A stretch of DNA of 64,000 nt, taken from contig NC_068569.1 of the NCBI RefSeq assembly GCF_025698545.1, forward strand, positions 6,200,001-6,264,000. Direction: 5' to 3'. Source of the DNA: Gossypium raimondii. Lineage: Eukaryota; Streptophyta; Magnoliopsida; Malvales; Malvaceae. Positions 9,986 through 20,100 of the stretch are shown here, piece by piece. Numbering within the stretch: position 1 is the stretch's first letter; the number at the start of each line of letters is the position of its first letter. Made by a program: the position numbers and the translations under genes. The notes under the pieces are model-generated. The model saw nothing but the letters and a program-made list of their open reading frames with translations, was not told where the DNA came from and searched no databases.

Positions 9986-10097
9986 CTTTAATATGAACTA
10001 TATCAATTTAATTCTATATTATGACCACTAAAACAGTTTATTTATATTTCTTACACTAAAAAAAAAAGTTAATTGGAAGGAACCTAAAACATTTAAG

Positions 10098-11318
10098 GGG
10101 TAAACTACAAAAATAGTCACTTTTGTTTGCCTCAGGTTATATTTTAGTCACTTATGTTTGAAATGTTACGTTTTAGTCACTTATGTTATTATTTTGTTAC
10201 GAAGTGATCACTCTTCCGTTAAGTTCCGTTATCTCCCTAACGGTAATCCTACGTGGCAGTCTAACTAGATTTTAAGTGCCAACTTTGATTTCCTAATGGG
10301 ATGAGAATAGATTTTTAATTAAATAAATTTAATTAATTAAAAATTTTAAACCCTAAATCTTAGTTAAAAACCGTTCGTTTCCCCCCTTTTTTTAGTTTTT
10401 TTGAGGGGTTTCTCTAAGACAAATTATGCACCTGTAAAAGACATCAAAGGAAACGGCAGCACGAGCATAGCCAAGGTGACTGAAATTATAGGCGGTGACA
10501 CATGAGACATACATGTGAACTTTTCCGGGGTTTTGGGCTTGAAAACCTCTTTTCTTTGAGTCATGGTATTGTAAACAACAAATTGGAATTCTTGGGTTTC
10601 CTTCCTAGCCATCGGTTTAAAAGCTTTTTTGGTTTGTTTCTTGCTTTGAGGATCCATTCGACCCTAAAAATTACCCATTTTCTAAAACTTAAATCACATG
10701 TAAATTAGTATGAATCTCCAAAACCCTACATCAATGGCAAAAAAAGAGTTCATAGCTTTTGAGACGCTTTAACAGTGAATTCATGCTTTAATAACTGGGA
10801 ACCTTTAAACAGTAAATTCCAACACCCTACATCAATGGCAAAAAAAAAGTTCAAGATTTAAAAAAAAATTGTTAACCCCAGTAAAGTTAAAAAAAATAAC
10901 TGGGAATTCAAGCTTTTAAGACACTTTAACAGTGAATTCAAAACTTACAATCCATGTATCTCTCATTCAAAGAATAGACCAAAGAATGAAAAGAACTCAC
11001 CAATTAATCAAGAAATTAAAGATGCAAAAACCCAAGTGGTGGAGATGAACGGTTTTTTAACTAAGATTTAGGGTTTTAATTTTTTAATTAATTAAATTTA
11101 TTTAATTAAAAATATATTCTCATCCCATCCAAGTTGGCACTTAAAATCTAGTTAGACTGCCACGTAGGATTACCGTTAGGGAGATAACGGAACTTAACGG
11201 AAGAGTGATCACTTCGTAACAAAATAATAACATAAGTGACGAAAACGTAACATTTCAAACATAAGTTACTAAAATGTAACCTGAGACAAACAAAAGTGAC
11301 TATTTTTGTAGTTTTCCC
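10098..11318. mobile_element. Pack-MULE, 1.2 kb, with captured CysRS exon
   Basis: Long terminal inverted repeats of roughly 240-260 bp. The left arm starts GGGTAAACTACAAAAATAG and the right arm ends CTATTTTTGTAGTTTTCCC, both running inward through TAACGGAACTTAACGG and TGCCACGTAGGATTACCG blocks. A 10-bp direct repeat AACATTTAAG flanks it (10088-10097 and 11319-11328). Long arms with a 9-10 bp duplication mark a Mutator-like element. There is no transposase. The centre carries a piece of a cellular gene (separate entry) and a degenerate duplication of a CCCTACATCAATGGCAAAAA segment (near 10722 and 10818). The arms still match closely, so the insertion is probably not very old. Confidence 0.88.
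10432..10657 (-). pseudogene. Captured first exon of cytosolic cysteinyl-tRNA synthetase inside the Pack-MULE
   Basis: On the minus strand an ATG at 10657 starts MDPQSKKQTKKAFKP, then EFQFVVYNTMTQRKEVFKPK and, after a one-base frame change near 10522-10530, HMYVSCVTAYNFSHLGYARA and AVSFDVFYR. This is the N-terminus of class I cysteinyl-tRNA synthetase with its HIGH signature (family form SHxGHARA; here SHLGYARA). The zinc-ligand Cys of the YVCGVT motif is Ser, and the HIGH-box second His is Tyr. The similarity stops at TTTTACAG|GTGCATAATT, which looks like the original exon 1 donor, so genomic DNA rather than cDNA was captured. A short leader upstream (to about 10700) may be captured too. Not expected to be functional; it could give antisense or small RNA against the parent gene. 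Confidence 0.8.
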
Positions 11319-11768
11319 AACATTTAAGCTAATGTTAATCCTTGTATCAAACCTAAAACAAAACGATTTAGAGTGTAAAAATCGAATTATTTTATCAAAA
11401 GGTATGAAAATGAAAATTAAACCAAGGTAACTAAAACAAAATATAAACAACTAAAATCCAAACATAAAGGTATGTCAACAGCTGTGAACAAAAGCACCAG
11501 CAGAGCAGAGCATATCATCGTTACCCTGATCACTAGGTTCAATATATAGAAACAATAAAATATTTTCTGTACAAAATTTGGGGATTTAAGTTTATCCAAT
11601 CCATACTGTAGCAATAGTCAAAATACAACTTCTACACAAATCTATGGATGATATGGATTTGTCTGGGACTCTCTATGGAATCAAAAATCCGCTTCTTCAA
11701 CCAAACGGCCCGATGGTTTCCTGCCTACCTAGCAACCAAACTGAAACCGGGCACACTCCCTGCAAATC

Positions 11769-14233: not shown

Positions 14234-17186
14234 TCAACGCCATGCTTCAACACGTTCTATCTTTGAATCTATGCAGCTTAAATTGCTTATTCCTTTGGTC
14301 TTCTCATCAAGTTTGGTTATCTGAGGTACAGATTGCTGCCCGCTGATTTTGTCAGTTTCCTTCTTGAGACTTGAATTACTTGATTGACCAATATTGTTCT
14401 CTCCAGTGTTAGCCACGGTACCAGGCCTCTGGCAGTTGGCTACGATGGCATCTGTTTCGCTCATGAAGGTTTCAACCGCGGCTGCAGTCTCATCTGAATG
14501 ATCTGCGTCAGGGACTAGACCTTTGACAGTCGGTGTTGAACTGTGATCTTCATTTTTCATCTCATTGTTCAGACTATATTTCCTGAAACTTTCACTTAAA
14601 GGTTCTTCAGCTATGAAGGACAGCTCTTTCTCTTCATTATCCTTTCCAGTATCTTGAATGCAGGAGATTGAAGGGCTCTGATCTCCATTATCATCAAAAG
14701 GCTCCAAATGGACGGCCGCAGCTGGCTCGACCACTGAATCCTCTCTTTCTCGCAGGGTCCTTACGATAAGTGTCTTGAGGAAGTTCATCACTTGGACCGC
14801 ATACATCAGTGCATTCAAGGGATCTGCCATCTGCAACCAAAATAAGCAATAAGCGGCAGCCAGCAGTCAGCACAATATATGCAAGTATGCATGTATGTGT
14901 GTGAAGATTAAAAGAAGCTCACCTGAGTCATGTTTGGTGCAAAAACCATAGCAATATTGCGTGCGTTCATCTTGTTTAGATGTTGTTGTTGAACGACATC
15001 AGCCATGAGATTGATGGCCCAATCGAGTAGAGCAAATTCTGTTGGGGGTATAAATCTTGCAAGCTCAGCACACTGCTCTTCAGTCTGGCATTCCATTACT
15101 TGCTCAGGAGATAAAGAATCCAAAACTCCTCTTGGAAGTTCTCTGAACCAAGCCTAAGCATAATCGACAGCAAATTAGTATATTAGGGTTTGAAGAACAT
15201 GAAAGTAACTTCAAAAAGCATAGCCATTTCTCCTCAGATGCATGTGGATTTGCAAGTGGGATTGAAGTGCCATTTTCGTACCTTGATTAATCCTGCCAAA
15301 CAATGTACGTCAATACCTTCTGGAACCACTCCGCCATTCAGTTGCTCTCTAACATATTCCTCCTGACTGTTTTCGGCATTAATTCGAAAAATCCCTTCTG
15401 CCTGCATGTATGAAGTCTATGGTAAGGACTTGGGGCTGAAAACTTAGAAACCTTCTTGAGAATTTCCAGTCATATAGATAAGAGAGAATGTTGAAGAATT
15501 GGATGTCCTCCTATGTTGAGCAATAGCAAAGAGAAGATGAAGTATGAAAATAAGAAAGAAAACCTGCAAGCCTCCTTGAGCATACAGACGTCTTTGCATT
15601 AGCAAAAGTATTGTTGGAACGATGTTCCCTCTGGAGTCATACGACAACTGCATGGATTCTGTGGAAACTCCAAAAACAGTTGTACTGCAAAAAGAAGGAA
15701 CAAAAACACGAATTAAGAGATATGCTGATCCCGGGTGTCTGTCTTTTTTTTTGGGGGGGGGGGGGTTTCCATTCTCTACATGCCATGAATGCCCTACAAG
15801 GCTACATGAAGAAACACTAAATGGAACTTCCAGTTTCATAACAATTGAATTTGAATATTCAATATATGGTGTGCAGATAGAGTTTCCGCGCAGCATCAGT
15901 GGAATATTGAACCCTTTTAACGCATCATACAATCAATTGTAATTAGGCCCTTTTTTACCCCGAAGATAGCCGTGAAAATTATCTATTCCCAATGGCCATA
16001 AATTTACCTAATCTTTTACTGCAGATTTTCCTTCTAGATTTATCTTGAATATGTAACTTTGAAAGAAGACACCAGAAAGGGAAAAAAAAACACGAGAGAA
16101 TCATCAAGAACTATAGGAAATGATTTCACCAGCAAGGCTTGAAAACAATGACTAAATGATGGGAAAAGGAATGGCAGGGAAAAATTTGTTCTCTTATAGC
16201 TCACCTAGTCACTTGGCTTGTTCCACCACCAAAAGCTATAATAGCTAAAAGTAGGAGGCCATAAATGTCTATGGGTCTAACAGGGTACACAATAAGAAAG
16301 GCCTCAACGCGATGGCATTTCGAATTTTGGTACCCATTAGAAAATAAGAGGCATTTGGAGAACAAATTGCATTCATTGATGAGGAAAAGTTGGGGCTCTG
16401 TTACTAGAAACAGAAGCTTCTGATTAGTTAACTTTCCAGAAGAAACTCAAATCCTCCTTAAAATTCTCATATCACATATAGCCGATGGAATTCCTTATCT
16501 ATATTATATCCTCCAAGGAAAGCATATGGTGAAAGCACAGAGCAAAGCTTATTAAGCAAAAAAAAGATGGAACAACATAACTGCGTCTCTTTCCAGATAC
16601 ATGCATTTACCTAAGCATTTCTAAGAACTTTATAAGCCAATACAGCAGCATTGCATAAAGCATCAGAAGAAGAAATGATAAAAGGCCAAAGGTACTATGA
16701 GAACACAAACTTTAGATATAAACATAAATGAAACGATCAGCTAGTAGCATTAAGCAGAAAGAATGGAAGTTGGATGTAGAGAAAGGGGAAAAGACAAAAC
16801 CTTGCACTAGGAGCTCTTCTGGGGACTTCAGGCTCAAACTCAACAGGCAAACCCAAGAAGCCATTGAACCTATCAAAAGTAACATGTGCTACATGTCTGA
16901 CATTGGTTGGCCAGCCGATCTCCATAGCACAAAGCTCTCTTCTTTCCATACTCTTACAAGCAGCCAATGATTTCCTGAAAAGGGTCACAACCAAAGCCAA
17001 CAAAGACAACTCTTCTTCCTCTTCCTCTCCTTCTCCTTCTGGGTCACCGCTTGTTATAGCATTGACAAAGTCATTTCTTTCCCCATGAGCGCAGGTTAAG
17101 GATGTCTGCGGTGCATAGGATAAAACAGGTTTAGAAGAGGAAGTGTTAGTGCTTTGAGGTGAAGGGAAATGAAGGACATCGGTCAT
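14234..17186 (-). CDS. ROP GTPase-activating protein with CRIB motif (484 aa)
   Basis: Five coding exons on the minus strand: 17186-16801, 15684-15564, 15401-15282, 15153-14923 and 14830-14234; phases agree throughout. After an acidic stretch comes the CRIB motif IGWPTNVRHVAHVTFDRFNG (about residues 90-110), which binds active ROP/RAC GTPase, then VFGVSTESMQLSYDSRGN and the RhoGAP domain. The arginine finger is in AEGIFRINAENS (Arg about 175), followed by HCLAGLIKAWFRELP and the helix LNKMNARNIAMVFAPNMTQ. The C-terminal exon (about 198 aa) is Ser/Glu-rich and disordered. The protein speeds GTP hydrolysis by ROPs at the plasma membrane, limiting polarity and stress signalling. ATG at 17186 was chosen because it is the first Met in the open frame; upstream in-frame codons lack ATG. 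Length matches the family (about 430-490 aa). Probably the counterpart of Arabidopsis At2g27440. Confidence 0.93.
15744..15765 (+). repeat. T9-G13 homopolymer tract in ROP GAP intron 1
   Basis: Nine T followed by thirteen G. On the transcribed gene it is C13A9. G13 could form intramolecular quadruplex structures; it may also be a sequencing-prone length. Confidence 0.8.
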
Positions 17187-17189
17187 GGT

Positions 17190-20100
17190 TGGCAATGACA
17201 GTTATGCTTATTTGGAATATTAAAAAAAAAATAGAGAAAATGAAAAATGATTTTGTTTTTTTTTTTTTAGAATCAGATTGCGAAGGGAGAGAAGGTGGAG
17301 TTGGATTGAAGTAAAAGGGTGGTTTCAAACGTGAGAATCATTAACTGAAATTCACGAATAAAATATTATAGTATTAGAAGTTTTCTTCCCTCCTCTTTTG
17401 TGTGTTTGGTTTATGGGATTTTGGAGCGTTGAAGAAGCCAAATTTGGTGGGAAATGAAGGAAAAAAGTAAATAATGATTATAAAAATGGCAGCTTGAGGT
17501 AGAAGAAGAAATTTCCTTTCTTTCCAGGAAAAAAATCCTATGTTTAAAAAAAGGTATATTGTGTATCTTAAAAGGCTGATTTATGGGCCGATTTATTGCC
17601 TTGATTTATTTGATTAAATAATGACCAGGAAATTGAATTCTAATAATAATGACCGGTAAAATCCCTGATATATTGGCTTTTGAGATTAATGAAGTGGTGG
17701 GGAAAGATTAAAACAACATCCTATCCACGACATTGAATTATTGAAGTTCTAAGAATGTGAACATGTTTTAGTGTTAAACATTTATTTGTTGTGCCTATTC
17801 TCATTATTTGTGTTAGATTTAAACCATTTCTTTTAACAATTTTAACAAATTTATGTTTTTGGGGTCATTATGATTATATATACCATATGATTTTTTTATT
17901 TAATAATAAAAGTTTGTTTTAACTCAACTTTATTATTTTTAAAAATATCAAGTATATTTTTATAATTTCGATTAAATCCATGAATAGTAAAATCTCATTG
18001 AAAATCGGAGATGTTTTTTATGTAAATGGAAAGCTGACTGTGGGATGAAAATAAAAATATATGAAATTTCTCAATTTTAAAATTCATATAAGATCAATCA
18101 ATTTGATTGCACCATATATGGATAATAAAAAGAAAAGAAAAGAGTTGGAGTGTCTTATTCAAAATGCTTAGTAGAATAAGTTGAGAGTGATTCTAGAATT
18201 AGATGGTCTTTTTCAAATTTAATTTAATGGTGGCTTACAATTTCAACTATCAACCAGTCAACCTACTTTTGATGCTTTCAATCCTCAAATTAATATTTAC
18301 CTACCTATGGGATATTGACATTCACCAAATATATAATCATTTAATTTATTCAAATATTATTACAGGACTAATTAAAACAAATGGTAAATAGTATTTTGTT
18401 ATATCATTAGGAGTCAATTTAATGATTAAGATTTATATATTTTTATTTTGTAGGTTGATCGTTAGAACAAGATTTTATACTAGCATATTTATTTTTGGAA
18501 AGAGAAATTTATTTATTTATTTTATAAATGAGATTATATAATTGAAAAAATAACAATTATATGTTGTAAGCAATATAATAAAAGTTTCAGCCTCAATATC
18601 ATTTAATACAACGAGGAAATTAATTCCAAATAATCTAAAATGATGAGTAAAATCGACAAAAGAATCGAGTATTCACTAAACTAGAAAAAACAATGACAAT
18701 ACCAATTCTAAAACTGCTTGCAAAATTAAGAGTATTTATTTATTTGTTGTATATGTTAACTTTTTAACTAAAAGTTACAATATATAGTGTAAAGAAAGAT
18801 TAACTAACGGATAAATTATTATTAAGTTAAAATTCAAGTGCCATTTTTTATGGGATTTTCTCATAATCACATGACTCTCATCAATTCCATTTCAACTTGT
18901 TTCTTCAATATATATATATATATATAATATTAAAAAATCCATTAATAAGAAATTAAATAACTGTATTTATGATTTTTTAAAGCAGCTAATGATATGATAT
19001 AATATTATTTTTAAATAATCGAATTACTATTATAACTTTATAGTTTTTTATGATTTTATTTTTAATTCACACCGATTCAATAAAATATTTATACTACTAT
19101 AGATAAATAAAACAGGAAATTTTTATTAAATTAATTTCTGACGTTCAAAAGATCATATTTTTCTTCTTTTTAAAAATATACTAGCCACTTAAATCTTTGC
19201 TTTGTTGGTCTATACTTTATAGTAGCAATAGCAACAATAAAATATACGAATAATAAATTTATTTAAAAGTCTATAGAACAAAAGGGGAGGAGGAAATAAT
19301 AAAGGAAATTTTATACAAAGCTACATATGAATCATCTACACACTCTCTTTTTTATTAATTAAATTTTGAAAAAAAATCCACCTTACATAAAATATCATAA
19401 ACAGTTATTATGAGTTGAGTTCCTTTTCCAAAAAAAAATAAAAATAGAGAATGATGAACAACATCAGTTTTGAGTTCATCGCGGCTTCTTCAGTAATATT
19501 TTCAAAATTTTCTTTTGTTTTTAATTTCAATCTACCGTATCGTGATATTTGTCCAAACATTTGTCCATATTTTTGTGTTTTTTATTTATAATTTTCTTTA
19601 AAAGCAGTAGTAATTTTAATTTTAATTTTCAATTTCTACTCACGTTTTTAACATACATCAAGGTAAAACTATTCTAAAAAAAAAAAAAAACTTATCATGA
19701 TAGGGCACAATGATAGTGTTTGTAAAATTGTATTTTTGAGATGCGGAGAAGGATAAGCCATTTGAGGCTTAGCATTTCATGTATTATTAATGTGGTGGGT
19801 CACTTGATAGTGTTCTCTTAGTTGACCAGAGTTCATGTAGGGTTAGGATGAAATGTTTAACGGTTTAATCAAGGTGATGCATTTTTAGTTTATTTTTAAA
19901 TTCTTCGAATATTGTGGTCACTATCAAATTATTTTTTTCCCCTTCAGGGATTATTAATTATTTTGCAAATATGACATTTGAGCATCAGTTTATAGTGTCT
20001 TATTTATCATCTGTACCATGTGTCAAAATATTTGCATTATTATCTTTCATGGTTCTTACTAATAAAAGTAATTGCTTAAAAAATTAAAATTGATATTACT

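Follow-up and report, generated by a model that had tools for sequence, protein, structure and literature searches.

The window analysed here is a 64,000-nt stretch of the Gossypium raimondii genome (NC_068569.1, positions 6,200,001 to 6,264,000, forward strand), and positions given without a prefix refer to it. A complete non-autonomous Mutator-like element occupied positions 10098-11318, with the same start and end coordinates as in the preliminary description of this DNA. That description had proposed the anatomy of a Pack-MULE, which was borne out: inverted arms and a perfect 10-bp target duplication were found together with a gene-derived cargo. The features of the element are listed below.

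10088-10097, no strand: target-site duplication, left copy, AACATTTAAG, 10 bp (direct reading; ends checked by script)
10098-10403, plus strand: left terminal inverted repeat, starting with GGGTAAACTACA; this arm is also present in transposase-bearing relatives
10404-10431, minus strand: first ~28 bp of intron 1 of the C12 cysteinyl-tRNA synthetase (CysRS) gene, minus-strand start GTGCATAATTT (alignment with C12:53690488-53691203)
10432-10657, minus strand: CysRS exon 1, from the ATG at 10655-10657 (complement) to the splice donor at 10431/10432
10658-11035, minus strand: 5' flank of the C12 CysRS gene, 378 bp, a stretch that itself belongs to a dispersed repeat
10982-10986, no strand: site of a ~74-bp deletion at a 5-bp repeat, in the window copy only
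11036-11318, minus strand: right terminal inverted repeat, ending with GTAGTTTTCCC
11319-11328, no strand: target-site duplication, right copy, AACATTTAAG

The arms were ~283-306 bp long and 96-97% identical across the aligned blocks (10098-10289/11127-11318, 192 nt, 97%; 10296-10370/11054-11128, 75 nt, 96%). Between them, the minus-strand order from right to left was gene flank, CysRS exon 1 and the start of intron 1. In the profile search, PF01406 matched C5:6210425-6210541 on the minus strand with an E-value of 2.2e-4, and the exon-1 translation of the donor matched the same profile at 3.3e-11. Together with the alignment to the C12 gene, this match confirmed that exon 1 of a CysRS gene had been captured on the minus strand. 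The statement that the similarity ends exactly at a splice-donor-like site was correct for the exon, which ends at 10432, but not for the capture, which runs on ~28 bp into intron 1, to ~10404. Similarly, exon 1 was present as described, but the 5' flank and the start of intron 1 had been captured with it. Exon 1 measured 226 nt in the window compared to 230 nt in the donor, and its frame was shifted. The ~74-bp sequence deleted in the window copy was present in the donor and in the 11 other copies. The longest open reading frame lying wholly within the element was CysRS-derived and encoded 77 aa, and there was no transposase inside. Elsewhere in the window, an open reading frame at 2263-2859 encoded a reverse transcriptase (RVT_1, 3e-17), of the non-LTR type by its look, and one at 16737-17195 on the minus strand, ~5.4 kb from the element and possibly part of a host gene, contained a P21-Rho-binding domain (PBD, 1.4e-5).

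The 751-Mb genome (281 contigs) was searched with the cargo, and all 24 candidates were scored. At least 12 elements with this CysRS cargo were found, the window element included; the suggested search for same-armed relatives thus yielded eleven more copies with the same arms and cargo. Perfect target duplications of 9-10 bp flanked every one of the 12, and all of them differed in sequence. The duplication scores were 8.5-10, with no shift of the ends in 10 copies and a 1-base shift at one or both ends in the other two. When random placements were made at the same loci, with the ends free to shift by up to 3 bases as for the copies and a few tries skipped (points within 50 bases), 9 of 5000 tries reached a score of at least 7.5. 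The duplication was also perfect in 13 of 14 additional elements with the same arms and had one mismatch in the remaining one, L064. The left arm of the C2 copy at 8.36 Mb had an insertion of ~1.25 kb at its inner end. A 23-bp end motif, allowing at most 2 mismatches, matched the genome at 890 forward and 867 reverse sites, 1757 in all, compared to 0 for the reversed control, which indicates that the arm family is large. A chance inverted repeat next to an ordinary CysRS pseudogene or segmental duplication is hardly conceivable as an explanation of the locus. It would have to account for 12 copies of arms plus cargo, for perfect and differing duplications at all of them where control placements almost never gave one, and for the excess of end-motif matches; we regarded it as refuted.

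The cargo was collinear with C12:53690488-53691203, the 5' end of the CysRS gene C12a. This is the parent gene whose existence had been predicted: its exon 1 matches and it lacks the arms, no match to which was found within the 10 kb fetched around the gene (L052). The paralogues C12b (C12:53655981) and C6 (C6:28250912) matched only the exon-1/intron part of the cargo and diverged at the ATG. The C12a flank belongs to a dispersed repeat that occurs at seven other places (L023-L025, L028, L030-L032), and beyond the ATG position those places contained other, mutually similar sequence. The upstream region of C12a (L052, C12:53690259-53690947) consists of this dispersed repeat joined at the ATG, and the paralogues differ there. 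The junction of flank repeat and exon at the ATG indicates that the donor was C12a or a near-identical lost allele. The short elements with this cargo (class A) shared three fixed states that are absent from the C12 gene and lie outside the poly-A run; given these states, an allele similar to the C12 gene and since lost may have been the actual donor. The genome contained at least four CysRS loci, two on C12 and one each on C6 and C10, so the donor was not the sole CysRS copy. Since both flank and intron are present in the cargo, the capture was made from DNA and not from mRNA, in agreement with the preliminary description.

The window element is non-autonomous and of a Mutator-type family, with long arms, a target duplication and a gene fragment whose parent is armless. 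These are the features of Pack-MULEs, whose arms are typically 100-500 bp according to PMC3310237, and the element is a good but ordinary example of this known kind. We consider it very probable that the DNA at 10098-11318 is a Pack-MULE, a non-autonomous Mutator-like DNA transposon, whose ancestor took up the CysRS piece as DNA and then multiplied. The ancestor would have acquired a ~715-bp DNA piece of C12:53690488-53691203, directly or via a larger element, and the short form would then have spread by transposition to at least 12 copies.

The close match between the two arms had been taken as a sign of recent insertion, a claim that the comparison among copies contradicted. The left-right arm identity within single elements lay between 91.3 and 97.2% in the 12 copies and was 96.0% in the window element. 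The left arm of the window element shared on average 96.1% (best 97.6%) with the other left arms, and its right arm 95.8% (best 97.5%) with the other right arms. In all 12 copies the left-right identity was lower than the best same-side identity, although the latter is a maximum taken over as many as 11 comparisons, which gives the means more weight. Compared to the mean left-left identity, the left-right value was lower in 10 copies, equal in one and higher in one; compared to the mean right-right identity, it was lower in six of the 12. The two arms of one copy were thus no closer to each other than same-side arms of different copies, and the arm differences largely predate the insertions. 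The arms do not date the insertion, and dating by arm divergence was rejected for this reason. The nearest copy was 95.8% identical to the window copy over the cargo, and the terminal branch of the window copy was 0.024; on both counts this copy bears no marks of youth. Its private substitutions numbered 9 in 631 sites.

The coding state of the cargo was then compared across the copies. The CysRS frame was intact from the ATG to the donor site in one of the 12 (C10:45989772), while the copy at C1:837621 kept the frame and had lost the ATG; a GT stood at the donor position in all 12. Counted in the frame of the donor with majority states, the exon carried 45 distinct nonsynonymous changes (0.248 per site) and 18 synonymous changes (0.388 per site), a ratio of 0.64 per site by simple counting on few changes. 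An earlier count was discarded, as its majority sequence was out of frame in the poly-A run. The captured 5' flank showed 0.175 changes per site, all changes taken together, and seven copy-level changes created a stop codon. We read these values as showing no clear constraint: the ratio is below 1, yet the nonsynonymous rate is not below that of the flank. With the frame kept from the ATG in a single copy, the cargo looks unconstrained. That it is retained as a coding exon giving a chimeric protein is very improbable. The C10 copy and the invariant GT would suit such a function, but in the remaining 11 copies the frame is broken or, in one, the ATG is gone, and nonsynonymous changes are no rarer per site than changes in the flank. 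The cargo is not maintained as coding sequence, and in its present state is likely decaying passenger DNA.

The same arms also enclosed other cargo. Eleven elements without CysRS were compared (L055-L065), and seven of them (L055, L056, L061-L065) had a common inner piece. In L056 this piece corresponded to the N-terminal part of a phosphate:H+ symporter (TIGR00887, 1.1e-45, with a bit score below the whole-protein cut-off of the model), and in L065 it matched Sugar_tr. L057 and L058 held only part of the inner piece, while L059 and L060 carried other sequence. The presence of several inner pieces under the same arms indicates that the MULE family packages several sequences. The elements with the symporter piece form a second Pack-MULE set, and in L065 this piece is interrupted by a ~2.5-kb insertion.

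Larger relatives with the same arms fell into two classes. Class B comprised C13:40858024-40869391 (11,368 bp; L047 and L048) and C7:1520288-1527326 (7,039 bp). Both were bounded by these arms and flanked by perfect target duplications, and both contained MuDR-type transposase sequence besides a longer, gapped 5' part of the CysRS gene. A SWIM domain was detected in the C13 element (1.5e-9). The arms of that element are 659 bp long and 92.9% identical, and both contain ~250 bp that match sequence upstream of the C12 CysRS gene. The class C element at C2:7587078-7593575 (L067) measured 6,498 bp, with arms 92% identical to the window arm and a perfect 9-bp duplication. It contained a stop-free transposase exon of 388 aa (DBD_Tnp_Mut, 7.2e-6; MULE, 7.9e-10) and carried the 3' half of a CysRS gene. 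Six copies of class C were found, two of them split by later insertions. The junction between CysRS and arm was continuous in all six, and that on the transposase side was continuous in three (C2, C5 and C13 at 7.17 Mb), partial in two and not found in one. These three copies had transposase matches within 5 kb among the best 106 of 1994 candidates. Among the same best 106 of 1994 candidates, three of the five stop-free 388-aa transposase exons listed had no CysRS match nearby, and CysRS is therefore not a constant component of the MULE family. In L053 (C6:28246001-28256000), remnants of the arms reach to within ~0.7 kb of the ATG of the C6 CysRS gene on its upstream side, and transposase remnants lie farther upstream; an element of the same family is thus lodged beside a CysRS gene that was captured.

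The donors of classes B and C were compared at sites where one of the host genes C12a, C12b and C6 differs from the other two, using one copy per class. The C13 class B copy agreed with C12a at 24 sites and with C12b and C6 at 2 each, whereas the C2 class C copy agreed with C6 at 54 sites and with neither C12 gene at any. C12a was also the closest match to the short C7 class B piece (96.3% vs 94.3 and 92.7%), and the class C ends were 97% and 98% identical to the C6 gene compared to 95-96% and 74-77% to the others. Since the class B sites favour C12a and the class C sites C6, CysRS DNA was captured at least twice, from two paralogues. It is unlikely, in our judgement, that the MULE family keeps returning to CysRS genes by targeted capture, in which a resident piece or an adjoining element, as at C6, would prime homology-based uptake in gap repair.

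The short class A elements may have arisen by way of a larger form. According to this route, which we give a slightly better than even chance, the 5' part of the C12 gene was acquired by a large transposase-bearing class B element, from an early form of which class A descends through an internal deletion. Two derived states at cargo positions 444 and 602 are common to class A and the C13 class B copy and are absent from the donor and the compared outgroups; A and B group apart from the donor with 86% ultrafast bootstrap; and the C13 class B copy also derives from C12a at the informative sites (24 vs 2 and 2). On the other hand, the AU test keeps the trees that place B or A with the donor (p 0.077-0.101), with a bp-RELL of 0.03 for B with the donor. 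B is nested inside A at 75% support, a position that neither scheme readily explains. Moreover, some of the flank present in A is missing from both surviving B elements, and B in its observed form is therefore not the direct ancestor of A. The shared states and the 86% support favour a single capture behind A and B, while the AU values are compatible with two. In the final tree the four dispersed-repeat rows were dropped, and the short C7 class B row was left out of both trees. The tree with the four dispersed-repeat outgroup rows was set aside, as those rows and the C12b and C6 rows cover different columns.

Whether uptake was direct or by way of a class B form, the transposase would have been supplied in trans by same-armed full-size elements, as the shared arms, and the arms only, suggest. 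The capture itself would have taken place during gap repair, a usual proposal for MULEs. The element may exert promoter, antisense or small-RNA effects. That the copies are a source of antisense or hairpin small RNA lowering CysRS expression is doubtful; the 12 copies share 90-97% exon-1 identity with the CysRS gene, but how strongly a donor gene is silenced is described as depending on how important that gene is, and no sign of transcription of the element was found.

Among described cases, the closest we saw is tomato PM-ZIBP. Like the window family, PM-ZIBP is non-autonomous, with long arms, target duplications of 9-11 bp, a host gene fragment with a parental gene and about a dozen copies (PMC3310237). 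The arms of PM-ZIBP are tandem in 13 of 14 copies (PMC3310237), whereas those of the window family are single; the cargo here is CysRS, unlike that of PM-ZIBP, and larger same-armed relatives contain other pieces of the CysRS family. Acquired sequence built into extended arms is also described in PMC3310237, and the same was seen in the C13 element, a transposase-bearing relative, but not in the window element. Classes B and C, with a captured host piece beside the element's own genes, are comparable to the Ulp1-carrying Kaonashi (KIU) MULEs of PMC13317346, where KIU is one of three coding genes. However, the KIU elements are described as non-TIR MULEs with a conserved Ulp1 domain (PMC13317346), whereas long arms are present in classes B and C, of which CysRS is no constant part. 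Gossypium did not occur in the main text of PMC8903248. In the open-licence literature searched, no description of a MULE capturing CysRS sequence was found. Among the coding genes of Kaonashi is also a transposase.

The window family offers a clean, bounded case, as the donor, the two breakpoints, the 12 copies with their duplications and the transposase-bearing relatives with the same arms can all be seen in one genome. The repeated capture by the larger relatives is the part that deserves the attention of specialists. How MULEs take up genes is yet to be understood, according to PMC3310237, and if the recapture of CysRS from two paralogues truly exceeds chance, this family would be a place to ask that question.
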